Shown piece by piece: positions 19,298-36,415 of a stretch of 54,234 nucleotides of DNA (its first letter is position 1; each line of letters starts with the position of its first letter). The translations under genes and the position numbers were made by a program. The DNA lies in assembly GCA_937919625.1 (NCBI GenBank), contig CALFRK010000020.1, positions 1 to 54,234 on the forward strand, given 5' to 3'. This stretch comes from an uncultured Ilumatobacter sp. (GTDB lineage: Bacteria > Actinomycetota > Acidimicrobiia > Acidimicrobiales > Ilumatobacteraceae). The notes under the pieces were generated by a model, which saw only the letters and a list, made by a program, of their open reading frames with translations, searched no databases and was not told the origin of the DNA.

Positions 19298-19385
19298 TCG
19301 CCGACGGCGGTCAGCGTCGCTGTCGTGGGTCTCGATGCGTGTGGGATACGGTCGCCAATCACTGCACATGTGAGAGGGGGTGGCG

Positions 19386-22166
19386 ATGACGGGTCGAATG
19401 GAATTCGATGCGGGGGGCGACGAGCCGGGCGACGAGGCGGGCGACGAGGCGGCCTCGCGGAAAGCAGAACGGGCTGCGATCGTGATCGAAGCGGCTTCTG
19501 AGGGGGTGTACGACTGGAACATCGACACGAACGATGTATGGGTGTCGGGTCGGTTGAACGAGCTGTTCGGGTTCGAAGACGGCGATCTCCGGTCGCAGTC
19601 GTGGTTCGACAAGGTCGACCCCGCATCTCGCGAGCTGTACTCGGAAGCGACACGTGCACTTCTCCGAGGTACCACTGCGCGGCTGGAGTGCGAGTACCAG
19701 GTCCGCGACAAGGCGGGGGAACTGCGTTGGGTGTCGGACCGCGGGCAGGTGATCCGGGATGAATCGGGCCGAGCGCTCCGGCTCGTCGGCGCCATCGAGG
19801 ACATCACGCAGCGCAAGAAGACCGAGGACGAACTGCGGATCAGCGAAGAGCGTTATGCGCTGTCGGCGGCGGCGGCCAACGAAGGTATCTACGACCTCGA
19901 CCTCGAGACCGGCACGATCTACTACTCGCCGCGCCTGCTGTCGTTGATGGACCTCGGCGATGTCGAGATGACGACGCCACAGCAGTGGCTGGCACGGGTC
20001 CATCCGGACGATCGTGATGCCTACTCAGACGCGATCCTAGAACACGTTCGTGGCGACACGAGCTTCATGGAGTTGGAGTATCGATACCTCGGTGGGGCCG
20101 GCGATTGGAAGTGGGCGCGTCAGCGCGGGATGGTCGCACGCGATAAAGACGGTCGGGCGTATCGACTCGCTGGGGCGACGGGCGACATCACCGAAACGAA
20201 GCGGCTGCAGCAGGAGTTGGAACTAACCCGCCAGCAACTTCAGGACGCGATGGAGTCGATGTCCGAAGGCCTGGTGTTGTTCGACGCCGAGGATCGAATT
20301 CTGCTGTGCAACTCGAAGTATCGCGAGTACTTCGTCGCTGGGGCGGGCGACGACGTGGCCGATCTCGTCCGTCCGGGCACGTCGTTCGAGTCGCTCCTGC
20401 GTCAGGCCTACCGGCGCGGGATGTTCCCCGATCTGGAGGAAGACGAGGACACCTGGATCGAGTCGCGTCTCAGCCGCAGGCGGTCGATGGTGGAACAGCG
20501 ACTCGAGCTGCGCCAGAACACGGGCATGTGGCTGCAAATCAACGAGCGCCGCACGAGCGAGGGTGGCGTGGTCTCGATCTACACCGACGTCACCGAGCTC
20601 AAGCGGCGTGAGCTGGAGCTGAGCGAGGCGCGCGACGAGGCCGAGGCGGCCACAGCCGCCAAGTCCGAATTCTTGGCAAACATGAGCCATGAGCTGCGGA
20701 CGCCGCTCAACGCCATCATTGGGTTGACCGAGATGCTGATCGAGGACGCCGAAGACGACGGTGTCGACGATCATCTCGAGCCGCTCGGTCGCGTCAAGCG
20801 AGCTGGTACCCACCTGCTGCATCTGATCAACGAGATCCTCGATCTGTCCAAGATCGAGGCAGGCAAGATGGAGATCGTCGATGAGCACGTCGAGTTGGAT
20901 CCGCTGCTGAGCGACGTCGTGCAGACAGCCGAGACTCTGGCTGTCCAGAACTCGAACGCCTTGCAGGTCGATATCGGTGGCGACCTCGGACAGATCCGTG
21001 GCGACACGGTGCGGATCCGCCAGATCGCCTTGAACCTGATCAGCAACGCCTGCAAGTTCACCGAGCGCGGCGTGGTCGGGATCAGCGCCAAAAGGGTGCC
21101 AGGCGCCGACGGCGACGAGTTGCACGTGGCGGTTCAGGATTCGGGGATCGGTATCTCCGACGACCAGATCGACAGGTTGTTCCGCGACTTCAGCCAGGCC
21201 GATAGTTCGATGTCTCGACGGTTTGGCGGGACCGGCCTCGGGCTGGCGATCAGTCGTCGCCTGGCGCGAATGATGGGTGGCGACATTCGCGTCGAGAGCA
21301 CGATCGGGGTCGGGTCGACCTTCACCATGGTGTTGCCGTACCGCACCGCTTCGTCGGCTTCGGCGACGGTCGGCCAGGTGCGGTCGTCAGAGGCGGCCGG
21401 ATTGGTCGGGGAGGGCGCCACCGTGCTCGTCATCGACGACGACGCCACGAGTCGCGACCTGGTTCGAAGGGTGCTGGTCGCCGAAGGGTTCGACGTGATC
21501 TCCGCCAGCGGGGCGACCGACGGACTCGAACGTGCGCGGGCAGTCCGCCCCGACCTGATCACGTTGGATGTCGTGATGCCCGGCACGGACGGTTGGGACC
21601 TGCTGCGCCAGCTGAAGGCCGATCCGGACCTGAGTGGTGTGCCGGTCGTGATGCTCACCGTCGTCGACGAACCCGCAAAGGGGTTCGCACTGGGAGCCTC
21701 CGACTATCTCAGCAAACCATTTCGTCGCGAAGACTTGAGGGCCGTGCTTGCCCGACATGCGACAGCCGATCGACCCGCCCGGATTTTGGTGGTCGAGGAC
21801 GACCCGCCGACACGGGATGTGCTGCGCCGGTCGATCACCGATCTTGGATGGTCGGTGGCGGAGGCCGGAAACGGACGTGAGGGACTCGAACGATTTGCCG
21901 AGCAACAACCAGACCTGATCCTGCTCGACCTGATGATGCCAGAGATGGACGGATTCGAGTTCTTGTCCGAGCTGCGGTTCCGTCCGGGCGGCGAAACGGT
22001 GCCCGTCGTCGTCATGACGGCGGCCGATCTGACCGACGCAGACCGAGCGGCCCTGAGCGGCGGCGCTGCCACGGTGCTGGCGAAGCCGGCGCATGCGATC
22101 GAAGAACTGCCCGTCGAGCTGCGCAGCTTGCTGCAGCGGATCGGTAGGGAGCAGCACCGTGCCTAG
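19386..22166 (+). CDS. hybrid sensor histidine kinase, PAS-PAS-PAS-HK-REC-REC
   Basis: 926 aa, soluble with no membrane segment. The ATG at 19386 is preferred over GTG 19380 because of the GAGGGGG spacing. After an acidic repeat ([12 protein letters not shown]) come PAS1 (about 30-145), PAS2 (about 150-270) with typical PAC ends ([12 protein letters not shown] and [12 protein letters not shown]), and PAS3 (about 285-405). The kinase core has [11 protein letters not shown] (His about 434), NACKFTERG and [10 protein letters not shown]. Receiver 1 has phosphoacceptor Asp about 727 ([10 protein letters not shown]) and receiver 2 Asp about 849 ([13 protein letters not shown]). Receiver 2 has TVLAKP at the conserved Lys. 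It overlaps the start of the cyclase gene by 8 bp, so the two are translationally coupled. Phosphotransfer to the cyclase receivers is likely but inferred. Confidence 0.93.
19416..19451 (+). repeat. three tandem 12-bp units in kinase N-terminus
   Basis: ggcgacgagccg followed by two copies of ggcgacgaggcg. Twelve bases keep the frame and encode a Gly-Asp-Glu-Pro/Ala run. Possible slippage-prone length polymorphism. Confidence 0.85.
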
Positions 22167-23664
22167 GGTCCTCTATGTCGAAGACAATGACGACAACGTG
22201 TTCATGCTCAGCAGGCGTCTGCAGAAACGCGGCTATGAAATTTTCGTCGCCTCCGATGGCGAGTCGGGAATCGAAATGGCGGGCAGCGAACAACCCGATC
22301 TGATCCTGATGGATCTTGGCCTTCCGGGAATCGACGGGTGGGAGACGACCCGACGCCTGAAGGCCGACGTTGCCACTCGATCGATACCCGTCATTGCGCT
22401 CAGCGCCCACGCGATGCAGACCGACCGCGAGTCGGCATTGGTGGCAGGATGCGACGATTTCGACACCAAGCCGGTCGACCTCGAACGGCTGCTGGGCAAG
22501 ATGCGGGCGTGCCTCGAGGCGGCCACGACCACGACCGTCGTGCCATCCGACGCTGCGGCCGACGATGCTTCCGACGCTGCGGCTCCGAATGTCGGGGCCG
22601 CGCAGGATGGTCCGACCTTGCTCGTTGTCGACGACAGTGAGGACAACCGGTACACGCTGATCCGGCGATTACGTCGTCAAGGTCACGAACGAATTTTGGA
22701 GGCCGAAAACGGTCGCCAGGCGCTTGACATGCTGCGTAGCCAGCCCGTTGACCTGGTGCTGCTCGACATGATGATGCCGGAGATGAATGGCTACGAGGTG
22801 CTCGGTGCGATGCGGGAGGACATGGAGCTACGCGAGCTGCCCGTGATCATGATCTCAGCGCTAGACGACCTCGACAACATCGTTCGTTGTCTAGAACTCG
22901 GTGCCGAGGACTACCTTCCCAAGCCGTTCGATGCGACCATCCTCAACGCCCGCGTCACGGCGTCGTTGGAAAAGCGGAGACTTCGCAAGGAACAGGCGGC
23001 CTACGTCGAGGCGGTAGAACGAGAACGCAAGCGGGCCGATCGCCTCTTGTCGGCCATGGTGCCGGTCGGCGCCGTTGCCGAACTGAAGGCACACGGCACG
23101 GTTGTGCCTCGCAGGTACGACAACGTCGCTGTGCTGTTCTGCGACATCGTCGGATTCACTTCGTTCTGCGATCGCACTTCACCGGAAGAGGTCGTCAGTG
23201 GGCTCGATGCGCAGGTGGTCGAGTTCGAGCGGATCACCGCGCTCCACGGGATGGAGAAGATCAAGACGATCGGTGACGCATTCATGGCGACCGCCGGGAT
23301 GCTGGTCGGCTGCGAGAACCCGACGGAGGCGGCCGTGGCGTGCGGGCTCGACATGGTCGCCGTGGCTCGCACCATCGAGCCGCACTGGGAGGTGCGGGTT
23401 GGTATCCATCTCGGTCCCGTGGTCGCCGGGATCACCGGCAAGCTGCGATTCCAATTCGATTTGTGGGGCGACACCGTCAATGTCGCGGCGAGAATCTGTG
23501 ATCGGGCGGCGCCCGGGTCGGTTGTCGTTTCGGCTCCTTGTTGGCCCGCGATTCGGTCCCGTTACCGAGGACGTTCGATGGGCCCAGTCGACCTGAAAGG
23601 AAAGGGCGTCTTGGAACTGATCGAGTGCCTTCCCCTCATCACCGACCAACCAGTTGGTAGTTGA
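22159..23664 (+). CDS. REC-REC-class III adenylate cyclase
   Basis: 501 aa from GTG 22159 (GGGAG upstream). Receiver 1 (about 3-115) has phosphoacceptor Asp52 and Lys104; receiver 2 (about 153-270) has Asp203 (LVLLDMMMPEMNG) and Lys255. A charged helix (271-300) leads to the cyclase domain: FCDIVGFT (metal Asp329), MEKIKTIGDAFM (Lys369, metal Asp373), FQFDLWGDTVNVAARI (Asp434, Asn441, Arg445). Lys at 369 and Asp at 434 are the adenine-specifying pair; guanylate cyclases have Glu and Cys. cAMP is therefore the predicted product, apparently controlled by phosphorylation from the upstream hybrid kinase. The neighbouring cNMP-acyltransferase is a candidate effector. Confidence 0.92.
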   Translation: MPRVLYVEDNDDNVFMLSRRLQKRGYEIFVASDGESGIEMAGSEQPDLILMDLGLPGIDGWETTRRLKADVATRSIPVIALSAHAMQTDRESALVAGCDDFDTKPVDLERLLGKMRACLEAATTTTVVPSDAAADDASDAAAPNVGAAQDGPTLLVVDDSEDNRYTLIRRLRRQGHERILEAENGRQALDMLRSQPVDLVLLDMMMPEMNGYEVLGAMREDMELRELPVIMISALDDLDNIVRCLELGAEDYLPKPFDATILNARVTASLEKRRLRKEQAAYVEAVERERKRADRLLSAMVPVGAVAELKAHGTVVPRRYDNVAVLFCDIVGFTSFCDRTSPEEVVSGLDAQVVEFERITALHGMEKIKTIGDAFMATAGMLVGCENPTEAAVACGLDMVAVARTIEPHWEVRVGIHLGPVVAGITGKLRFQFDLWGDTVNVAARICDRAAPGSVVVSAPCWPAIRSRYRGRSMGPVDLKGKGVLELIECLPLITDQPVGS

Positions 23665-23708
23665 GTTGGTAGTTGAGTTGGTACTTGTGCCTGGCACAAG
23701 TACCAACT
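23652..23708. repeat. 12-bp tandem repeat merging into a 33-bp perfect palindrome
   Basis: agttggtagttg occurs at 23652-23663 and 23664-23675, and a variant (agttggtacttg) at 23676-23687. The first two copies repeat Val-Gly-Ser-stop in the cyclase frame. The third copy is part of a 16-bp perfect inverted repeat with a single-base centre (23676-23691 and 23693-23708), whose end overlaps the hutH stop codon. It lies between convergent genes and may act as a bidirectional terminator, although no T-run is present. Confidence 0.93.
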
Positions 23709-25266
23709 ATGAGAGGTGGACGTCGAGGGCCTCGAGGGCGGCGGCCGGGGAGTCGGATCGCAAGAACACTTCCGCTGCTGCAAGTTCGGGAGAGAGCACC
23801 CGGTCGGGGCCGGGCCCTTGAACGACCTTTCGGAGGGCGGTGATCACGGCGCCGGTAGCTGACGCCGGTACCAGCGGAGCGCGCAGGTCGACGGCTCTCG
23901 CCCCGATCACCAACTCGATCGCAAGGATCCGACGCAGGTTGTCGACAACTCGGCGCAGCTTGCGCACGGCGCCCCATGCCATCGAGACGTGGTCTTCCTG
24001 CATGCCGGAGGTGGGCAGCGAGTCAACGCTGGCCGGCGCCGCGAGGCGGCGGTTCTCGGCGCACATTGCCGCCGCCGTGTACTGAGCGATCATCATGCCG
24101 CTGTCGACACCGACCTCGTTGGCTAGGAAAGGCGGAAGACCGTGTGAGCGGGTGCGGTCGAGCAGGCGGTCCATTCGGCGTTCGGCGATCGCGCCGACCT
24201 CGCTGAGCGCGATCGCCAGGAAGTCTGCGGCGAACCCGAGTGGGGCACCGTGGAAATTGCCGCCGGACTCGACCCGGCCGTCGGGCAGCACCATCGGATT
24301 ATCGATCGCCGCCGCGAGTTCCCAATCGGCAACGCGTCGCACATGATCGAGGGTGTCGCGGGCGGCGCCGTGAACCTGTGGAGTGCAGCGGATCGAGTAG
24401 GCGTCCTGTACACGCGAGTCGTCGGTGAGGTGGCTGGCGATGATCGGCGAATTGGCCAGCATCGTGCGCAGGTTGGCGGCGCTGGTTGCCTGTCCGGGGT
24501 GAGGTCGCAACGCCAGCAAATCCTCGGCGAAGGCGCGGTCGGTTGCGAGCGAGCCCTCGACTGTGATGGCTGCGGCGATGTCGGCCTGGGTGAGCAGGGC
24601 GGCGGCGTCGTGAATCGCCATGCACAACATGCCGAGAATCCCGTCGGTGCCGTTGGTGACCGCCAGGCCCTCCTTCTCCGAGAGGGCGATCGGTTCCAAG
24701 CCGGCGGCGGCAAGCGCGTTGGCGGCGAAACCTCGCTGACCATCGATGAACGCCTCGCCCTCCCCGAGCAGCGTGAGGGCGGCGTGGGCGAGTGGGGCAA
24801 GGTCGCCGCTGGCTCCGAGCGACCCGTACTCGGGCACGACGGGCACGATGCCGGCGTTGACGACGTCGAGCATCGCTTGAGCAACGAGCGCACGAGCGCC
24901 GCTGAAGCCGAGCGCCAGGGTGCGCGCCCGCAGGAACATCATCGCCCGCACGACCTCCGGCTCGACCGGATCGCCCATCCCGGCGGCATGCGATCGCACA
25001 AGGGCGTGCTGCAGATCTTGGCGACGTTCGGGTGGGATCGACACGTTGGCCAGGGCGCCAAAGCCGGTCGACAGCCCGTAGACGGCATCGCTGCCGGCGG
25101 CGAGCTGATCGACCACCGCCCGCGAGGCGCTCATGCGCTCGATCGCGGCGTCGGTCAGCTCGACGAGAGCACCGCCGCGGGCGACGGCGATGACATCTGC
25201 GACGGTGACGCCGGGGCCGTCGAGTTGGATCGTTATCGGTACGGTGGTCATCGGTGCAGTGGTCAT
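23707..25266 (-). CDS. hutH: histidine ammonia-lyase
   Basis: 519 aa, standard length. It deaminates histidine to urocanate, the first step of histidine use. The MIO-forming Ala-Ser-Gly lies in GSLGASGDLAPLAH (152-154). Other conserved blocks are YGLSTGFGALANV, NGTDGILGML, QDAYSIRCTPQVHGAARDTL and NNP-like DNPMVLPDGRVESGGNFHG. AGGAGG is positioned 7 bases before the ATG at 25266; a second ATG five codons on is less likely. It follows the IclR-type regulator gene by 34 bp on the same strand. The stop codon overlaps a palindrome. Confidence 0.97.
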   Translation of the reverse strand: MTTAPMTTVPITIQLDGPGVTVADVIAVARGGALVELTDAAIERMSASRAVVDQLAAGSDAVYGLSTGFGALANVSIPPERRQDLQHALVRSHAAGMGDPVEPEVVRAMMFLRARTLALGFSGARALVAQAMLDVVNAGIVPVVPEYGSLGASGDLAPLAHAALTLLGEGEAFIDGQRGFAANALAAAGLEPIALSEKEGLAVTNGTDGILGMLCMAIHDAAALLTQADIAAAITVEGSLATDRAFAEDLLALRPHPGQATSAANLRTMLANSPIIASHLTDDSRVQDAYSIRCTPQVHGAARDTLDHVRRVADWELAAAIDNPMVLPDGRVESGGNFHGAPLGFAADFLAIALSEVGAIAERRMDRLLDRTRSHGLPPFLANEVGVDSGMMIAQYTAAAMCAENRRLAAPASVDSLPTSGMQEDHVSMAWGAVRKLRRVVDNLRRILAIELVIGARAVDLRAPLVPASATGAVITALRKVVQGPGPDRVLSPELAAAEVFLRSDSPAAALEALDVHLS

Positions 25267-25300: not shown

Positions 25301-25981
25301 TCACGAGGCGACCCTCGTCAGCCCGAGTTGAGCGACCAAACGTTCGACACCGTATTGCAGGGCGGCCGTAGCGGCTTCGACTGCGGCGTGATCCATACGA
25401 TGCGTCGGGCCGATGATCGACAGGGCGGCGACGACGCGGTCGCCGTCGAGAACACAGCGTGCGACTGCGGCGATGTCGGCCTCGACCGAACCGGACTTGG
25501 TGCGTGCCCCGGCCAGCCCGGCGAGAGCTTCGCCGACGGCGGTACCGGCGAGCGGTACGGCCTTGCCGACCCAACCCACGTGGCGGATCGAGCGCGTGCT
25601 TTCGCATGTCGCCAGGTACACGGCACGATCGCCGTCGCTGACCGCCAGATACGACGACTCACCGGTGCGCTCGGTCAGTTCGTCGAGCACTGGCTGAGCT
25701 GCGCTGACGAGCCTTGCAAACGGGCCGTCGCCGCCGGCCGCGGCGGCGAGACGTAGCACGGTCGGACCGGCCGAGTAGCTGCCCTCGAGGTCACGCCGCA
25801 CATAGCCGCGCGACTCGAGTGCGCGCAGGTGGCGCAGGGCCGTGGTGGGGGTCAGCCCGGCGAGCGACGCCGCTGTTGTGAGGTTCGTCTTTCCCTGGCC
25901 GGCCACGATTTCGAGCAGGTCGAAGGCCCTTCCGACGGAACGGGGGACCAGATTGGCGTTCGTTTCGGAGATGGGTGGCAT
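25301..25981 (-). CDS. IclR-family regulator of the hut cluster
   Basis: 226 aa. The ATG at 25981 has GGAG upstream. The N-terminal winged HTH reads SVGRAFDLLEIVAGQGKTNLTTAASLAGLTPTTALRHLRALESRGYVRRD. The C-terminal IclR effector domain includes SSYLAVSDGDRAVYLATCESTRSIRHVGWVGKAVPLAGTAVGEALAG, typical of the ligand-binding fold. It sits directly before hutH and is divergent from hutU, so control of both arms is likely, with a pathway metabolite such as urocanate as the effector (inference). Confidence 0.9.
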   Translation of the reverse strand: MPPISETNANLVPRSVGRAFDLLEIVAGQGKTNLTTAASLAGLTPTTALRHLRALESRGYVRRDLEGSYSAGPTVLRLAAAAGGDGPFARLVSAAQPVLDELTERTGESSYLAVSDGDRAVYLATCESTRSIRHVGWVGKAVPLAGTAVGEALAGLAGARTKSGSVEADIAAVARCVLDGDRVVAALSIIGPTHRMDHAAVEAATAALQYGVERLVAQLGLTRVAS

Positions 25982-26016
25982 TGTCACTCCATGACATGAG
26001 GTGTCGTCTGTTGACA
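25982..26016. promoter_or_regulatory. paired operator-like palindromes in the hut divergent region
   Basis: TGTCACTCCATGACA (25982-25996) and TGTCGTCTGTTGACA (26002-26016) are related 15-bp elements. The first has 5-bp arms (TGTCA-N5-TGACA); the second keeps TGTC-N7-GACA. Their starts are 20 bp apart, about two helical turns. The first overlaps the ribosome site of the regulator gene, which fits autorepression. The second contains TTGACA, a possible -35 box for the hutU direction. Confidence 0.5.
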
Positions 26017-26066
26017 ACGTACGCCAAGAAGGGAGAAACTGCAAGCTGGCACATCCCCACGACCGC

Positions 26067-26111
26067 CGAACACAATCTGGTCGAACACAATCTGGCCGAA
26101 CACAATCAGGA
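26067..26111 (+). repeat. three tandem 15-bp units in the hutU leader
   Basis: cgaacacaatctggt, cgaacacaatctggc and cgaacacaatcagga follow one another directly. The third copy runs into the AGGAGG ribosome site of hutU (26108-26113), so copy number would not change ribosome-site spacing but would change the leader length. Confidence 0.9.
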
Positions 26112-26117
26112 GGACCG

Positions 26118-27794
26118 ATGACGATCGCCAAGGTGTCAGCACCGCGAGGCACAACCCTGAACTGTCTCGGATGGCAGCAGGAAGCCCCCTATCGGATGCT
26201 GCAGAACAATCTCGACCCCGAGGTCGCCGAGAATCCTGACGAGCTGGTCGTGTACGGCGGGACCGGCCGGGCGGCGCGATCGTGGGAGGCGTTCCATGCA
26301 ATCAAGCGCACGCTCACCACGCTCCGTGCCGACGAGACGATGCTCGTACAGTCGGGCAAGCCCGTCGGCGTAATGCGCACTCACGAGTGGGCGCCGCGCG
26401 TGCTGATCGCCAACTCGAACCTCGTGCCCGACTGGGCCAACTGGGATGAGTTCCGTCGGCTCGAGCATCTCGGTCTCACGATGTACGGCCAGATGACGGC
26501 CGGCTCATGGATCTATATCGGTACCCAGGGCATCCTGCAGGGCACCTACGAGTGTTTCGCCGAGATCGCCCGCCGAAAGTTCGGTGGCACGCTGGCTGGC
26601 ACGTTGACCGTCACCGCCGGGGCCGGGGGCATGGGCGGCGCGCAGCCGCTCGCCGTCACCATGAACGATGGCGTCGTACTGATCATCGATGTCGATCAGC
26701 ACATGCTGCAGCGTCGCGTCGACCACCGCTATCTCGACGAGATCGCCGCCGACTACGACTCCGCCATCCGGCGCGTGATGGAGGCCAAAGCGGCCCGCAG
26801 GCCGTTGTCGGTGGGGTTGCTGGGCAATGCCGCCGACATCTTGCCGCGGATGCTCGCCGACAACGTGGCAGCCGACATCGTCACCGATCAGACCAGCGCC
26901 CACGACCCGCTCAGCTACGTGCCGAACGATCTCAGTCCCGAGGCCGCCGACGAGCTGCGCCGTAACGATCCTGGCGAGTTCACCCGTCGCTCGCGGGCCG
27001 CCATGGCCACCCATTGTGAGGCGATGGTCGGGTTTCTGGACGCCGGCTCGGAAGTGTTCGACTATGGCAACAGCCTGCGCGCCGAGGCCCAGCTCGGTGG
27101 TTACGACCGGGCATTCGACTATCCAGGGTTTCTCCCCGCCTACATCCGGCCTTTGTTCTGTGAGGGCAAGGGTCCGTTTCGATGGGTCGCGCTGTCTGGC
27201 GACCCGGCCGATATTGCGGCAACCGACCGCGCAGTGCTCGACGAGTTCCCCGACGACGAGGGCCTGGCGCGCTGGATCCGGTTGGCGGGCGAGCGGGTTG
27301 CCTTCCAGGGCCTGCCGGCGCGGATCTGCTGGCTCGGTTACGGCGAGCGGCACCGGCTGGGGCTGCGATTCAACGAAATGGTGCGCTCGGGAGAGTTGAA
27401 GGCGCCGATCGTAATCGGCCGCGACCACCTCGATTCGGGATCGGTGGCATCGCCGTACCGTGAGACCGAAGACATGCTCGACGGCTCGGATGCGATCGCC
27501 GATTGGCCGCTCTTGAACGGACTTGTAAACGCCTGTTCGGGCGCCACCTGGGTCAGCATCCACCACGGTGGTGGTGTCGGTATCGGCCGCTCGATCCACG
27601 CCGGTCAGGTGTGTGTCGCGGACGGCACTGATCTTGCCGACCAGAAGCTCGAGCGTGTACTCACGAACGATCCAGGCATGGGCGTGATACGCCACGTCGA
27701 TGCCGGTTACGACCGGGCGATCGAGGTCGCCGATCAACGTGGAGTTCGTGTGCCGATGCAAGAGGGCGGACCTGCTGGCGAAGGCGCGACGTGA
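26118..27794 (+). CDS. hutU: urocanate hydratase (urocanase)
   Basis: 558 aa. It converts urocanate to imidazolonepropionate using tightly bound NAD+. Conserved blocks: [39 protein letters not shown] (Gly-rich NAD site), [36 protein letters not shown], the active-site cysteine segment [14 protein letters not shown], and [15 protein letters not shown]. The ATG at 26118 with AGGAGG just upstream sets the start; the frame open from 26001 encodes only the leader repeats. Its stop overlaps the next gene by GTGA. Confidence 0.97.
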
Positions 27795-28363
27795 CCGTCC
27801 GAACAATCCGGCGGATCGGCGACCCGGTCCTGCGGCGACGTGCCAGCGAGATCGATGTGTCCGAGATCGGCGCGCCTGACACTCAGCAACTGATCGACGA
27901 TCTGATCGACACGATGCGCGACGCCAACGGGGCAGGGCTGGCGGCCAACCAGATCGGAACGCTGAAACGAGTAGTGGTTATGGAGGTTGGGGACAATCCT
28001 CGCTACCCGTACAAACCGAACATCCCATTGACGATCGCCATCAATCCCGTGGTCGAGCCGCTCGACGAGGAGATGGTCGACATCAACGAGGGCTGCCTGT
28101 CGGTGCCGGTCCGCGGCGTCGTGCCCCGCCACGTCAATGTGCGGGTGCGCTATCTCGATCGTGATGGTGTTGAACACGACGAGGTCACACGTGGTCTCAC
28201 GGCCGGCACGTGGCAGCACGAATGCGACCATCTCGACGGTGTGCTGATCGTCGATCGGGTCGTCGATACCCACACATTCTCAGAGTGGGCCGAGTTCGAG
28301 GTGTTCCACCGCGAAGCGTTCGTCGAACGGATCAGTACGTTTGTGGAGCGCACCGGCTCGTAA
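27791..28363 (+). CDS. peptide-deformylase-family enzyme inside the hut operon
   Basis: 190 aa starting at GTG 27791, which overlaps the hutU stop (GTGA). All three deformylase motifs are intact: [10 protein letters not shown] (47-56), EGCLSVP (metal ligand Cys102) and QHECDHLDG (His143, Glu144, His147). Peptide deformylases remove the formyl group from N-formylmethionyl peptides with a Cys/His/His-bound metal. The gene is locked between hutU and hutF by overlaps or near-overlaps, and no HutG gene is present here. It may therefore hydrolyse N-formylglutamate, the HutF product. Alternatively it is an ordinary second deformylase that happens to share the operon. Confidence 0.9.
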
Positions 28364-28376
28364 GGTCTACGTGGTG

Positions 28377-29732
28377 ATGGCCGCTACGACACGCCTGTGG
28401 TGCGAGCATGCGCTGCTTCCCGGTGGGCCGGCCGAACGCGTGTCGATCGATGTTGCCGACGGGCGCGTCGTCTCGGTCGCGGCGGGCGTCGATCCGGCAG
28501 TCGGTGCCCAGCGCCGTAACGGTGTCACGATGCCCGGTGCCGCCAACGCACACAGCCATGCCTTTCATCGCGCCCTGCGACACCGAAGCCAGACCGGCCA
28601 CGGCTCGTTCTGGACCTGGCGTGAGCAGATGTACGACGTTGCCGCCGCTCTTGACCCCGAGCGTTATCACCGGCTGGCACGCGCAGTATTCGGCGAGATG
28701 GTGCTCAGCGGGTACACGGTTGTCGGCGAGTTCAACTATGTGCATCATCGACCCGGCGGAGCTCCCTATGCCGACCCGAACGCGATGACCGAAGCGTTGA
28801 CCCAAGCGGCCAGTGACGCGGGCATCAGGATCACCTTGCTCGACACTGTGTACCTGCATGGCGGTCTTGCCGATGACGGTTATCTCGCCTTGTTCGGGCG
28901 TCAGCGGCGCTTCGGCGACGCATCGATCGAGGCGTGGGCCGAGCGGGTCGCCGCCCTGGCTCCCGACCCACGACGTCTGGTTGGCGCGGCGATCCACTCG
29001 GTACGCGCAGTTGACCCTGCAGCAATCACTGCCGTTGCCCGTTGGACCGCTGCAGCTGGCGCTCCGCTGCACGCCCACGTCAGCGAACAGCCGGCCGAGA
29101 ACGATCAGTGTCTCGCCGCCCACGGATGTACACCCGTCGAGTTGCTGGCTAGAAGCGGCGCCCTTGCAGCCAACTTCACAGCGGTCCACGCCACCCATCT
29201 CAACGATTCCGACATCACATTGCTAGGCGCAGCCGGTGCCTCGGTCTGCTTGTGTCCGACGACCGAACGCGATCTCGGGGACGGGGTCGGTCCGGCCCGC
29301 CGACTGACCGACGCCGGAGCGGTGTTAACGATCGGGAGCGACTCGCACGCCGTGATCGACCCGTTCGAGGAGGCGCGGGCGATCGAACTCGACGAGCGCC
29401 TGGTCGGCGGTCAGCGGGGAACATTCGACACCGTTGAACTCACTGCAACGATGACGGCGGGGCACCGCTCGCTCGGTTGGCACGACGTCGGCTCGATCGC
29501 AGTCGGCCAACGCGCCGATTTGGTAACGGTCGCACTCGACTCGACACGCACGGCCGGCAGCCAGCCGGGAGCGGTCAGCGAGGCGGTGGTGTTCTCCGCC
29601 GCCGCCGCCGATGTCACCCACGTGATGATCGATGGGGTGAGCGTGGTCGAAAATGGCCGGCATGACCGCGTCGACGTGGCAGCTGAGCTGGCGGCGGCAA
29701 TCCGCGAGATCGTCGGCCACGTCTCGGCATGA
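28377..29732 (+). CDS. hutF: formimidoylglutamate deiminase
   Basis: 451 aa. An amidohydrolase that converts N-formimidoyl-glutamate to N-formylglutamate and ammonia. The diagnostic HutF block [34 protein letters not shown] carries the first metal histidines. Other ligands lie in [19 protein letters not shown] and GSDSH. The start is ATG 28377; GTGs at 28371 and 28374 are alternatives, and AAGG follows the stop of the deformylase gene. The stop overlaps hutI by ATGA. Its presence means the pathway ends in formylglutamate rather than formamide plus glutamate. Confidence 0.94.
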
Positions 29733-30883
29733 GCACCCTGGTGATCGACCGAATCGGCTCGCTGATCACCAACGATCCGTCGCTCGGCGAGGGCCCGCTC
29801 GGGCTGATCTCTGACGCATCGATCGTGATCGAGCACGGTTTTGTTGTCGCGGTTGGCCGAGCTGGGGCGATTGCCGACGAGCGAATCGACGCGGAAGGCG
29901 CCTGCGTGCTGCCGGGGTTTGTCGACTCCCACACCCATCTGGTGTTTGCCGGTGATCGGGCAGCCGAGTTCAGCGCCCGCATGGCAGGCCAGCCCTACGA
30001 CGGCGGCGGGATCGTGGTGACCACCGAGGCAACGCGGTCCGCCAGCACCGACAAGCTCGACCGCCTCACGATGCAACGCGTCGCAGAGGCGCGACGGCAC
30101 GGCACGACGACGCTCGAGATCAAGTCGGGCTACGGACTCGATGTTGCCAACGAGGTGCGAGCGCTCGACATCGCTGGGCATTACACGACGGAGACGACCT
30201 TCCTCGGTGCTCATCTGGTGCCCACCGAGTACGCCGGCCGGTCAGATGACTACATCGATCTCGTCTGCGGCGCGATGCTGGCGGCAACCGCCGGTAGCGC
30301 CCGCTGGATCGACGCCTTCTGCGAGACCGGCGCATTCGATGCCGATCAATGCCGTGCCGTTCTCGATGCCGGTCGTGCTGCGGGACTCGGGTTGCGGCTG
30401 CACGGCAACCAGCTCGGATACGGGCCTGGTGTTCAACTGGCAGTTGAGTGCGGTTGTGCATCGGTCGATCACTGCACCTATCTGTCCGACGCCGACATTG
30501 CCGCCCTCGCTGCCAGCGACACGGTTGCGACGTTCCTGCCCGCCGCCGACTTCTCGACCCGTCAGCCGTATCCCGACGCTCGGCGGGCGATCGATGCTGG
30601 CGTCACTGTGGCGATCGCGTCGAACTGCAATCCTGGATCTAGCTACACGACGTCGATCCCGTTCTGCATCGCGCTCGCCGTGCGCGACATGAACATGACG
30701 ATCGACGAAGCCGTGCAGGCGGCCACGGTCGGAGGTGCCAGGGCCCTGCGTCGCGACGACGTCGGGCGGCTGTCGCCTGGAAGTGTTGGGCATGCGATCG
30801 TGCTTGACGCGCCCTCGCATCATCACCTTGCGTATCGCCCGGGCGTACAGCTCGTGCGAACTGTCGTCGGTCCGGCGTCGTAA
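29729..30883 (+). CDS. hutI: imidazolonepropionase
   Basis: 384 aa, usual length. It hydrolyses imidazolone-5-propionate to N-formimidoyl-glutamate, the third step. Metal and substrate motifs: [61 protein letters not shown] and [15 protein letters not shown]. It overlaps the hutF stop by ATGA, so it is the fourth coupled gene of the hutU operon. Confidence 0.96.
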
Positions 30884-30935
30884 TCGATCTGCCCGAATCT
30901 GAACGGGCGATCGCCTATTGGTCCATGATGGACAC

Positions 30936-32315
30936 ATGACATTCAAGACCATCATCGAGCCGTTCCGAGTTCATTCGGTCGAACCGCTTGTGATGACCAC
31001 GCCCGAACAACGCCGCGAAGCGATCGGTCGTGCCGGAAACAACCTGTTCTCGCTTCGCGCCGAGGACGTGCTGATCGACTTCCTGACAGATTCGGGTACT
31101 GGCGCGATGTCGCGCGATCAGTGGGCGGCGATCCAACGCGGCGACGAGAGCTATGCAGGTTCGCCGTCGTGGTTTCGGTTCCTCGAGAGTGTTCAGGACC
31201 TATTCCCGTTCGAACATGTGATTCCCACCCACCAGGGCCGGGCTGCGGAGAAGATCCTGTTCACGGCGATCGGGGGTGAGGGCAAGATCGTGCCCAACAA
31301 CACCCACTTCGACACCACCCGCGCCAATGTCGAGTACACGGGAGCGCGAGCGGTCGATCTGGTGATTGCAGAGGGTCGCGACCCGGCGTCGAGGCACCCG
31401 TTCAAGGGCAATATGGACCTCGATGCTCTCGAAAGCCTGCTTATCGAGCACGGTCGCGAGGCGGTTCCGGTCGTGTTCATGACGATCACCAACAACTCGG
31501 GGGGCGGCCAACCGGTCTCGCTCGAGAATCTGCGCGGCGTTCGCGAGGTGTGCGACCGGTACGGCATCCCGTTCTTTCTAGATGCTTGCCGCTTCGCCGA
31601 GAACGCATGGTTCATACGCGAGCGGGAGGCCGGTCAGGGTGATCGCGACGTGCGCGACATCGTGCGCGAGGTGGCCTCGCTGGCCGATGGCATGACGATG
31701 AGCGCCAAGAAGGATCCGCTCGGCAACATCGGTGGATGGCTGGCGATGAACGACGACGGCTTGGCCGACGAATGTCGCACGCTGCTGATCCTGACTGAGG
31801 GGTTTCCAACGTACGGTGGGCTGGCGGGGCGCGACCTGGAAGCTCTCGCCCAAGGTCTGCGCGAGTCGGTGCAGCATGACTACCTCCGCTACCGGATCCG
31901 ATCGACGGCGTACCTCGGCGACGCACTCACCGCGGCTGGGGTGCCTGTTGTGCAACCGATCGGAGGGCACGCGGTCTACCTCGACGCCGGAGCACTGCTG
32001 CCGCACATCGATCCGCTCGACTATCCGGGCCAGGCACTTGCGATTGCCCTCTATGAGGCTGGCGGCATCCGCGGTTGTGAGATCGGCTCGGTGATGTTCG
32101 GCCTGCAACCCGATGGCAGCGAGCGGCCTGCGGCGATGGAACTGGTACGCCTGGCGATTCCGCGCCGCACGTACACACAGAGCCACATCGACTACGTGAT
32201 CGAGGTGGCGATCTCGGTCGCCGAACGAGCCGATCAGCTACGTGGCTATCGGATCACGAGCGAACCGCGACCGCTGCGCCACTTTACGGCCACCTTCGAA
32301 CAACAGACCGGCTAG
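30936..32315 (+). CDS. tryptophanase-like beta-eliminating lyase
   Basis: 459 aa PLP enzyme of the tryptophan indole-lyase/tyrosine phenol-lyase family. The PLP lysine lies in MTMSAKKDPLGNIGG (Lys259). Two residues that differ between the subfamilies are of the tryptophanase type: Asp126 in FDTTRAN (Thr in tyrosine phenol-lyase) and His449 in LRHFTA (Phe in tyrosine phenol-lyase). Elsewhere the NIGG motif after the lysine is phenol-lyase-like. It probably yields indole or a related leaving group plus pyruvate and ammonia. It lies 52 bp after hutI on the same strand and could be read through from the hut promoter. Confidence 0.85.
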   Translation: MTFKTIIEPFRVHSVEPLVMTTPEQRREAIGRAGNNLFSLRAEDVLIDFLTDSGTGAMSRDQWAAIQRGDESYAGSPSWFRFLESVQDLFPFEHVIPTHQGRAAEKILFTAIGGEGKIVPNNTHFDTTRANVEYTGARAVDLVIAEGRDPASRHPFKGNMDLDALESLLIEHGREAVPVVFMTITNNSGGGQPVSLENLRGVREVCDRYGIPFFLDACRFAENAWFIREREAGQGDRDVRDIVREVASLADGMTMSAKKDPLGNIGGWLAMNDDGLADECRTLLILTEGFPTYGGLAGRDLEALAQGLRESVQHDYLRYRIRSTAYLGDALTAAGVPVVQPIGGHAVYLDAGALLPHIDPLDYPGQALAIALYEAGGIRGCEIGSVMFGLQPDGSERPAAMELVRLAIPRRTYTQSHIDYVIEVAISVAERADQLRGYRITSEPRPLRHFTATFEQQTG

Positions 32316-33982: not shown

Positions 33983-36415
33983 GTGTCGTCAGATGCTCCG
34001 AAGCTACGTGGTCTCTCGACCGACGAGGTGAACGAACGTGTTCGCGACGGCAAGGTGAATCAGCAGCCGGCGCAGACATCGCGAACCTATGGCGGGATCA
34101 TCCGCAGCAACGTTTTGACCCGGTTCAACCTGATCATTTCGGTGTTGGCCGGCGTCGTACTGGCGGTCGGTTCTCCGGCGGACGCCTTGTTCGCCGGCGT
34201 GATGGTGCTCAACGCGCTGGTTGGGATCGTTCAGGAGATCCGGGCCAAACACACGCTTGATCGACTTCGTATTCTCGTTGCACCAATGGTGAGCGTTCGC
34301 CGAGACGGGGTGATGTCGCAGATCCCGCCCGAACAGGTTGTGCTCGGCGATCTGTTGCAGCTGAAGCAGGGCGACCAGGTGCCGGTCGACGGCACGATCG
34401 TTCGTGGCGAGTCGCTCGAGGTCGACGAGTCGGCGTTGACGGGTGAGTCTGATGCGGTGCTCAAGCTCGAGGGCGACGAGGTGATGTCAGGCAGCGCCGT
34501 CATGTCGGGGTCCGCGATGGTGGTCGCCGAGCGGGTTGGAGCGGATGCCGGGATCCAACGCCTGATCGCACAGGCCAAGCAGTATGTACTCGCCACGTCA
34601 GAGCTCCGTTCCGGAGTGGACCAGATCCTCCGAGCCGTTGGCTGGATGTTGGTTCCACTTGCGTCGCTGCTCTTGTGGAGCCAGTTGCGAGCAAGCAGTT
34701 CCACCAGCGACGGGCTTATCTCGGCGGTGGCGGGGGTCGTTGGCCTCGTGCCGCAGGGCCTGGTGCTGCTCGTCAGCATGGCACTCGCCGTCGCCGTGAT
34801 CCGGTTGGCGGGCGAACACGTGGTCGTTCAAGAGCTGCATGCGGTCGAAGGGCTGGCCAGGGTCGATGTGTTCTGCGTCGACAAGACGGGCACCCTGACG
34901 ACCGGCACCATGCAGGTCGAGCGGTTCGACCCGATCGATGCCGATGCCGATGCCGATGTCGTCAGACAGGCGTTGTCGTCGTTGATGCAGACCGACCCGA
35001 ACCCGACCACCACCTTGCGGGTGATCGGCGACTACGTGGGGGAGACCGAGCACTGGCCCTTCAGCCACCATGTGCCGTTCTCGTCGGCGCGCAAGTGGAG
35101 TGGTGCCACATTCGAGTTGCCGAAGGGGTCGGCCGAGGCAGATCGGCCTGACCAAACCTGGGTGCTCGGGGCACCAGAGATCCTGCTCGAGCTCGTCGAC
35201 GAAGTTGCCGCGGCCGCTATCACAAACGACATTGAACAGTCGATCAACGATGCCAATCGCGTCGTGCTGATCGCCTCGACAGCGGAAGCGCTGACCGAAT
35301 CAGAGTTGCCACGACGGCTGATCCCACGAGCCGTGATTGCCCTGTCCGAGCAAATTCGACCCGACGCTGCCGCCACGATGGCGTACTTCCGCCGCCAGAA
35401 CGTGACGATCAAGGTGATCTCCGGCGACAACCCGTCGACGGTGTCGGCGGTGGCGGCGCGGATTGGGCTCGAACACGCCGATCGTTCGGTCGATATGCGC
35501 CAGATCGACACCGAGCATCAGGCGGCGCTGGCCGAATTGATAGATCACAACACCGTATTCGGCAGGGTGTTGCCCGAACAGAAGCGGGCGATCGTCGGGG
35601 CCCTGCAACGGGCCGGCCACACGGTGGCGATGACGGGTGACGGCGTCAACGACATACCCGCCCTCAAGTTGGCAGACATCGGCATCGCCATGAATACGGC
35701 CACGCCGGCGACCAAGGCGATCTCGCAGCTCGTGCTGCTCGACGGGCGGTTCGACCGGATGCCGAACGTGGTTGCCGAGGGTCGTCGTGTGATCGCCAAC
35801 ATGGAACGGGTCTCGGCCCTGTTCGTCACCAAGACGGTCTATGCCGCCCTGTTTGCGTTGACGATCGGTCTGTCCGGGTCGATCTTTCCGTTCCTGCCTC
35901 GGCAGATGAGCCTCGTCTCCGAACTCACGATCGGGTTGCCCGCCTTCTTCTTGAGCTTTCGGGCTGCGGATGCCCCGTGCCGCCCCGGCTATCTGCAGCG
36001 GGTGTTGCGGTTTGCGCTCCCGGCCGGCCTTGCTGCTGCCGTGGTGACGTTGGCGGCGTACTGGGTGGCACGGTCTTCTGTGGTCGGCGCCACCTTGGAC
36101 GAGTCGCGTTCGGCGTCCACGATCGCGCTCGTGTTGTTCGCGTTGTGGGTGTTGCACGCACTCGTGACGCCTGTCGATCGGCTCGACGTGATCCTCTTGG
36201 CGTCGCTGGTTGCCATGTTCGTGGTGACCTTGGCGATCGACCCGATTCGTGGCTTTTACAAACTTGATTGGTTACCGCTCTCTGGCCTGATTTCGACGGG
36301 TGCGATCGTGTTCGCCGGAATCGTGTTGGCGCAGCTGATCGTGCGAGAGCGGACTCGTCGCACGGACCGGCGTGGTTTCGACTCCGAAAAGCGGCACCCG
36401 ACCACGGCCGATTGA
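33983..36415 (+). CDS. P-type cation ATPase, CtpE-like
   Basis: 810 aa with about ten membrane segments. The actuator domain has ESALTGESD, the phosphorylation motif is VFCVDKTGTLTTG (Asp about 300), and the hinge motif is MTGDGVNDIPALK. The M4 motif is PQGL (GLVPQGLVLL) rather than the PEGL of most Ca/heavy-metal pumps. This resembles the mycobacterial CtpE branch, for which calcium uptake has been proposed. There is no N-terminal CxxC metal-binding domain, which argues against copper. The GTG start lacks a strong ribosome site. The hypC gene follows 72 bp downstream. Confidence 0.9.
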   Translation: MSSDAPKLRGLSTDEVNERVRDGKVNQQPAQTSRTYGGIIRSNVLTRFNLIISVLAGVVLAVGSPADALFAGVMVLNALVGIVQEIRAKHTLDRLRILVAPMVSVRRDGVMSQIPPEQVVLGDLLQLKQGDQVPVDGTIVRGESLEVDESALTGESDAVLKLEGDEVMSGSAVMSGSAMVVAERVGADAGIQRLIAQAKQYVLATSELRSGVDQILRAVGWMLVPLASLLLWSQLRASSSTSDGLISAVAGVVGLVPQGLVLLVSMALAVAVIRLAGEHVVVQELHAVEGLARVDVFCVDKTGTLTTGTMQVERFDPIDADADADVVRQALSSLMQTDPNPTTTLRVIGDYVGETEHWPFSHHVPFSSARKWSGATFELPKGSAEADRPDQTWVLGAPEILLELVDEVAAAAITNDIEQSINDANRVVLIASTAEALTESELPRRLIPRAVIALSEQIRPDAAATMAYFRRQNVTIKVISGDNPSTVSAVAARIGLEHADRSVDMRQIDTEHQAALAELIDHNTVFGRVLPEQKRAIVGALQRAGHTVAMTGDGVNDIPALKLADIGIAMNTATPATKAISQLVLLDGRFDRMPNVVAEGRRVIANMERVSALFVTKTVYAALFALTIGLSGSIFPFLPRQMSLVSELTIGLPAFFLSFRAADAPCRPGYLQRVLRFALPAGLAAAVVTLAAYWVARSSVVGATLDESRSASTIALVLFALWVLHALVTPVDRLDVILLASLVAMFVVTLAIDPIRGFYKLDWLPLSGLISTGAIVFAGIVLAQLIVRERTRRTDRRGFDSEKRHPTTAD

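Follow-up and report, generated by a model that had tools for sequence, protein, structure and literature searches.

Histidine degradation through HutF yields N-formylglutamate, from which the formyl group must still be removed. Which enzyme completes the pathway when a hut operon encodes HutF and contains no HutG? This question is raised by a 54,234-nucleotide stretch of DNA, hereafter the window, from an uncultured Ilumatobacter sp. whose source genome (G000) comprises 4.1 Mb in 185 contigs and is 98.7% complete. The hut operon in the window contains a gene of the peptide deformylase family, here termed pdfL. Peptide deformylase, a target of antibiotics, normally acts in translation, where it trims nascent proteins. 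On the basis of sequence and genomic context, we propose that the product of pdfL very probably removes the formyl group from N-formylglutamate at the last step of the hut pathway, in place of the non-homologous HutG.

Organization of the hut operon

The gene order is hutH and an IclR-type regulator on one strand, followed by hutU, pdfL, hutF, and hutI on the other, and every hut gene scored above a curated cut-off (Table 1). pdfL is an intact open reading frame whose GTG start overlaps the TGA stop codon of hutU (27792-27794). Its own stop codon (28361-28363) is followed after 13 nt by the ATG at 28377, which is most likely the start of hutF. The reading frame is not a chance frame because relatives with 49-74% identity to its product have hut neighbors. 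The preliminary description had placed an intact deformylase-family gene between hutU and hutF, overlapping hutU, and the reading frame, the PF01327 match, and the coordinates bear this out.

The real start of the IclR-family regulator is probably further inside the listed frame, and a homologue of this regulator was found at 19 of the 80 PDFL loci represented by the best 80 relatives listed from named genomes (PDFL denotes the relatives of pdfL, as defined below). The tryptophanase/tyrosine phenol-lyase-family gene directly after hutI could share an amino-acid catabolic unit with the hut genes. Two large genes with predicted signaling domains and a P-type ATPase gene lie on the two sides of this region.

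Table 1. Features of the hut region in the window
Feature	Position	Strand	Evidence
Two large genes: predicted PAS-sensor histidine kinase with receiver domains; predicted receiver protein with nucleotide-cyclase-like end	19380-23664	+	
hutH, histidine ammonia-lyase	23707-25266	-	TIGR01225 654.7 bits (cut-off 539.15)
IclR-family regulator between hutH and hutU	25301-26152	-	IclR-type families, all below equivalog cut-offs
hutU, urocanate hydratase	26118-27794	+	TIGR01228 901.6 bits (cut-off 375)
pdfL, peptide-deformylase-family, putative N-formylglutamate deformylase (190 aa)	27791-28363	+	PF01327 148.7 bits
pdfL codons for residues 69-76, N-P-R-Y-P-Y-K-P	27995-28018	+	Alignment
hutF, formimidoylglutamate deiminase (product N-formylglutamate)	28377-29732	+	NF006681 586.5; TIGR02022 447.7 (cut-off 413.05); HutF_N 25.7 (cut-off 25)
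hutI, imidazolonepropionase	29729-30883	+	TIGR01224 356 (cut-off 298.15)
Tryptophanase/tyrosine phenol-lyase-family gene	30918-32315	+	NF009709 676.5 bits (cut-off 285)
P-type ATPase	33983-36415	+	TIGR01494 234.7 bits (cut-off 62.3); no specific equivalog cut-off passed among models listed

Family assignment and predicted fold of the pdfL product

The pdfL protein scored far above the PF01327 (Pep_deformylase) cut-off of 22.8 bits. This was the only family matched in the Pfam scan, which revealed no homology to PF05013 or to PF00491 (HutG formimidoylglutamase, arginase family), and the NCBIfam scan revealed no match to TIGR02017 (HutG). All three catalytic motifs of deformylases, as defined in the available text of PMC5591237, were present (I, GxGxAAxQ; II, EGCxS; III, HExDHxxG). 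An AlphaFold2 model built with 72 sequences (pLDDT 95.7) exhibited the standard deformylase fold, and its best structural match was the Leptospira enzyme 1sv2 (Z 28.3; rmsd 1.1 over 170 residues). The fold and the motifs alone do not discriminate between a peptide and an amino-acid substrate.

These data bear on a reading in which pdfL encodes a second peptide deformylase of the ordinary kind, acting as an isozyme on nascent or degraded formyl-peptides, and is a chance passenger in the hut operon. The closest solved relatives are indeed peptide deformylases, and the protein passed the cut-off of the NF001159 peptide deformylase subfamily (149.6 vs. 125). The pdfL protein fell just under the cut-off of the TIGR00079 peptide deformylase equivalog (103.3 vs. 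103.95), which may count against an ordinary isozyme, although two hut-linked PDFL relatives passed it (108.2 and 110.6).

Other deformylases and HutG candidates in the source genome

A profile search of G000 revealed two PF01327 matches, pdfL and a second gene, L001. The latter adjoins an fmt-like gene that scored 170.5 bits with TIGR00460, below the cut-off of 201.5, and a priA-like frame lies nearby. A deformylase gene beside fmt and near priA is the usual housekeeping setting. The possibility that pdfL is the sole deformylase of G000, which the preliminary description had singled out for checking, is ruled out by this second match. Its further statement that the operon has hutF and no HutG holds for the whole genome, in which no PF05013 (HutG family) match was found at E <= 0.001.

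The only arginase-family match in G000 was L003, which exceeded the agmatinase cut-off (213 vs. 174.3) and remained below the cut-off of the hutG formimidoylglutamase (184.3 vs. 229.15). A HutG elsewhere in G000 is unlikely, given the lack of a PF05013 match at this threshold, with L003 reading as an agmatinase. The presence of an arginase-family protein nevertheless lends something to the view that pdfL is accessory and that the step is carried out by another protein of G000, be it the agmatinase-like L003, a glutamate formimidoyl/formyltransferase, or a putative M20 protein, as do nine hutF-containing genomes of the class in which both PDFL and M20 are absent from the vicinity of hutF. We regard this view as very unlikely, given the position of L003 relative to the two cut-offs and its retrieved flank, in which no hut gene was found.

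Distribution of PDFL and hutF in Acidimicrobiia

We searched 296 Acidimicrobiia genomes by using the pdfL protein as the query. PDFL was defined as matches of at least 123 bits, the next score down being 92 bits, and hutF was called by TIGR02022 at E <= 1e-60. The results revealed PDFL in 37 genomes (38 loci) and hutF in 54, and all 37 PDFL genomes were among the 54 (Fisher test, 2.5e-34, which ignores kinship). In genera g1, g20, g36, and g128, PDFL and hutF were present or absent together in the contrasts visible among the matches listed. All but one of the 38 loci were hut-linked; the exception was L075 of G105, the hut operon of which lies on another contig. At one locus (L078), PDFL is apparently frameshifted. 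A comparison among relatives had been proposed in the preliminary description, and the gene tracked hutF in every one of the 37 PDFL-positive genomes of the class. That description had not anticipated that some relatives in Myxococcota and Gammaproteobacteria would be unlinked or that nine hutF genomes would lack both PDFL and M20 near hutF, as described below.

No PF05013 match was found in 33 of the 37 PDFL-positive genomes. Across the class, PF05013 occurred in 17 of 296 genomes (18 matches), including four with PDFL (G019, G050, G160, and G197) and two with an M20 gene before hutF (G172 and G180). The flanks retrieved for the 18 loci, mostly about 1.5 kb, and the longer stretches for the two best (L069 and L070) contained no hut gene. 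Four of the 18 proteins, the two best included, were scored against TIGR02017 (cut-off 278.75), and the highest score was 45.4 bits. A strict complementarity of PDFL and PF05013 was considered and is not clean, PF05013 also occurring in the four PDFL-positive genomes.

FGase-family proteins elsewhere in some PDFL genomes, together with the tryptophanase/tyrosine phenol-lyase-family gene after hutI, lend something to a reading in which pdfL deformylates another N-formyl compound of histidine or related amino-acid catabolism and N-formylglutamate is handled by an unlinked enzyme. PDFL accompanies hutF across genomes of many genera, and hut enzymes are not known to make any N-formyl compound other than N-formylglutamate. 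Both points count against such a substrate, which we consider most improbable.

An M20 amidohydrolase in the position before hutF

DNA around hutF was retrieved from all 17 genomes of the class that carry hutF and no PDFL. An M20 amidohydrolase gene was located directly upstream of hutF in eight of them (G014, G172, G180, G196, G226, G233, G269, and G289; loci L052, L055, L057, L058, L059, L065, L066, and L067). Three of the eight proteins were scored; all exceeded the NF006770 allantoate amidohydrolase cut-off and matched NF058540 (ErtE, N-carbamyl-L-glutamate amidohydrolase) below its cut-off. The remaining five genes were identified from tblastn matches to these three at 49-53% identity. 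Neither the 19 longer stretches retrieved from 16 PDFL-positive genomes of the class nor the loci of the best 80 PDFL relatives listed from named genomes showed an M20 gene. The slot before hutF can thus be occupied by either PDFL or M20, two hydrolases of unrelated families. Both are plausibly suited to cutting an N-acyl group from glutamate, and the M20 allantoate/carbamoyl-amino-acid amidohydrolase is a plausible second candidate for an N-formylglutamate hydrolase replacing HutG.

The remaining nine of the 54 hutF-positive genomes had neither PDFL nor M20 near hutF. At L056 (G223), hutU, hutF, and hutI follow in order with at most about 10 nt between hutU and hutF, and neither pdfL nor M20 was found in this stretch. 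At L061 and L062 (G042 and G086), hutH, hutI, a gene resembling a methyltransferase by sequence, and hutF lie in a row, and no hutU was detected in these stretches.

Relatives of pdfL beyond the class

Outside the class sample, we examined the best 80 listed relatives from named genomes. The best named match among those listed was from an Ilumatobacteraceae MAG (72% identity). Hut linkage was observed at 43 of the 80 loci, namely 37 from Actinomycetota, one from an acidobacterial MAG, one from a gammaproteobacterial MAG, and four with no assigned phylum; the acidobacterial and gammaproteobacterial linkages, seen in one MAG each, could be binning errors. The 37 unlinked loci were from Myxococcota (27), Pseudomonadota (9), and a genome with no assigned phylum (1). 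When the class loci and the best 80 listed named loci were combined, 80 of 118 were hut-linked, with six proteins identical in both sets. The nearest hut gene was on the same strand in all 80 linked loci and within 100 nt in 77, as judged from tblastn boundaries.

Two or more PF01327 matches were found in 51 of the 53 PDFL genomes searched. Among the 37 named genomes with an unlinked locus (best 80 listed), hutF was present elsewhere in 28, a count that excludes the linked G310 and the controls G334-G337, and PF05013 was present in 30. The gammaproteobacterial G310 carried a PF05013 protein in addition to its hut-linked PDFL, and PF05013 was found in none of the four hut-linked control genomes (G334-G337). 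Ten PF05013 proteins (six from these named genomes and four from the class) were all below the HutG equivalog cut-off; the best reached 143.8 vs. 278.75 bits, and one yielded no match to the equivalog at E <= 0.001.

The unlinked Myxococcota relatives are up to 63% identical to the pdfL protein among the matches listed. At four of their loci (L134, L140, L154, and L158), a gene near PDFL resembles M24 aminopeptidase P, as read from its first residues. In a sample of 188 Myxococcota genomes, hutF was present in 22 of 25 genomes with a strong PDFL match (at least 220 bits, a cut set after the scores were known) vs. 50 of 163 others (Fisher test, 5.5e-8, which ignores kinship); among the latter, hutF was present in 22 of the 47 genomes that had a weaker match and in 28 of the 116 that had no match. 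HutG above its cut-off was found in four of the 188 genomes, all with hutF; none of the four had a PDFL match of at least 220 bits, and two had a weaker relative. These two, G388 and G451, carry a genuine HutG beside hutF. With only four HutG genomes, the numbers are too few to show exclusion between PDFL and HutG. In the Myxococcota loci examined, no other hut gene was found within about 1.5 kb of hutF. Since hutF itself stands apart from other hut genes over this distance, a PDFL without hut linkage could well act in the hut pathway too.

Phylogeny, conserved residues, and C-terminal tail of PDFL

The tree comprised 159 rows, namely 108 PDFL (72 linked and 36 unlinked) and 51 ordinary deformylases, including two PDB chains. 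The apparently frameshifted L078, the short L181 and L185, and the identical rows L079, L121, L123, L124, L129, L141, L171, L266, and L268 were left out. Set A2 took in 71 of the best 80 listed named loci. The PDFL clade was split from the ordinary deformylases with a support of 99/91, the bootstrap being short of full convergence. The unlinked Myxococcota rows were nested among the linked ones (SH-aLRT 87 at the fork in a quick tree).

The metal ligands Cys102, His143, and His147 were present in all 108 PDFL, as were N69, R71-Y72-P73-Y74-K75-P76, and T140. In the same alignment, Y74, K75, and T140 occurred in none of the 51 ordinary deformylases; the Leptospira and Burkholderia enzymes have R-Y-P in common with PDFL and lack Y-K. 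Residue 48 was Ala, Ser, or Gly in 108 of 108 PDFL vs. Val or Ile in 44 of 51 ordinary deformylases. Position 99 was Asn in 63 of 72 linked PDFL and Tyr in 25 of 36 unlinked PDFL. No sequence mark specific to hut linkage was found, the Y-K loop and Thr140 also occurring in unlinked relatives; because the unlinked Myxococcota PDFL lie among the hut-linked ones in the tree, the marks are not hut-specific.

PDFL positions 48 and 140 presumably correspond to Ile44 and Cys129 in the methionine (S1') pocket of the Escherichia coli deformylase. In the available text of PMC3101196, this pocket is described as hydrophobic, and the CD loop of the Leptospira deformylase is described as enlarged and mobile. 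As judged from the alignment, the Y-K pair of PDFL appears to lie in the loop that matches this CD loop.

The median net charge of the C-terminal extension was -1 in 72 linked PDFL, 0 in 35 unlinked PDFL, and +4 in 49 ordinary deformylases; these counts omit the two PDB rows and L153, in which the pattern was not found. A basic tail, which is a tendency of ordinary deformylases and no strict criterion, is thus absent from PDFL. The C-terminal extension of deformylase is important in ribosome binding, according to the available text of PMC5591237.

An ordinary isozyme that merely travels with the hut genes would fit the unlinked Myxococcota relatives, four of which lie near the gene read as an M24 aminopeptidase. 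It would not readily account for the strict nesting of PDFL within hutF genomes in the class sample, the tight same-strand hut linkage in three phyla (two of them represented by a single MAG each), the substitution by an M20 hydrolase, the retention of a second deformylase, or the loss of the basic tail. We therefore consider the isozyme reading unlikely.

Proposed function of PDFL

For an N-formylglutamate deformylase, the following mechanism may be envisaged. HutF yields N-formyl-L-glutamate, which would be the substrate for PDFL. The PDFL metal center (Cys102, His143, and His147, with Glu144 as the general base by analogy) would direct the attack of water on the formyl carbon, and the products would be formate and L-glutamate. 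The invariant Tyr74-Lys75 loop may help to hold the substrate carboxylate; it is a candidate for this role because ordinary deformylases hold the peptide portion of their substrate, which is missing from a free formyl-amino acid. Thr140 and the small residue 48 may render the methionine (side-chain) pocket more polar, and the loss of the basic C-terminal tail may uncouple PDFL from the ribosome.

The proposed role is supported by the intact motifs, the predicted fold, the second deformylase copy, the operon position, the co-occurrence with hutF, and the absence of PF05013 from G000. Counted against it are the unlinked relatives (37 of the 80 listed named ones) and the presence of PF05013 in 30 of those genomes and in 4 of the 37 PDFL-positive class genomes. 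Also counted against it are the 9 of 54 hutF-positive class genomes with neither candidate near hutF, G310 with both PDFL and PF05013, G388 and G451 with HutG beside hutF and a weaker PDFL relative, and the two relatives that passed the TIGR00079 cut-off.

We also lean, with reservation, toward a broader proposal, in which the whole PDFL subfamily, recognizable by its invariant N-x-R-Y-P-Y-K-P loop and by Thr140, has moved from translation to metabolism and hydrolyzes N-formyl-L-glutamate in Actinomycetota, Myxococcota, Gammaproteobacteria, and the acidobacterial MAG, also where it is unlinked, with the M20 carbamoylase-like enzyme as a third independent solution.

If the proposed function is correct, this catabolic clade would represent a new role for the peptide deformylase fold, unexpected for this enzyme family, and a gap in histidine degradation would be filled in many Acidimicrobiia. 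Annotations would be corrected, the best NCBIfam models still naming PDFL proteins peptide deformylase. PDFL and ordinary deformylases would form a natural pair for studying a specificity shift from formyl-peptides to a free acidic amino acid. More speculatively, if PDFL binds actinonin-type inhibitors, the response of such bacteria to these compounds might be affected.

Comparison with known systems

The reaction, the fold, and the operon are known; the recruitment of a deformylase into the hut pathway is, as far as searched, undescribed. A literature search covering few subscription journals revealed no paper joining "formylglutamate" and "peptide deformylase", and earlier notice is possible.

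The M20 allantoate amidohydrolase, which exhibits weaker similarity to ErtE, resembles PDFL in occupying the same position before hutF in eight genomes of the class. However, it belongs to an unrelated family, and none was found beside PDFL in the loci examined. Peptide deformylase, of which the closest solved example is Leptospira interrogans 1sv2, shares with pdfL the fold, the three motifs, and the extended loop with R-Y-P, whereas pdfL differs as an extra copy within a hut operon with an invariant Tyr-Lys loop, Thr140, and a tail that is not basic. HutG (PF05013/TIGR02017) resembles pdfL in the reaction proposed for the latter, in its place in the pathway after HutF, and in its position in a hutF-containing hut operon, but the two have no sequence match, and the pdfL protein matches only PF01327 in Pfam.
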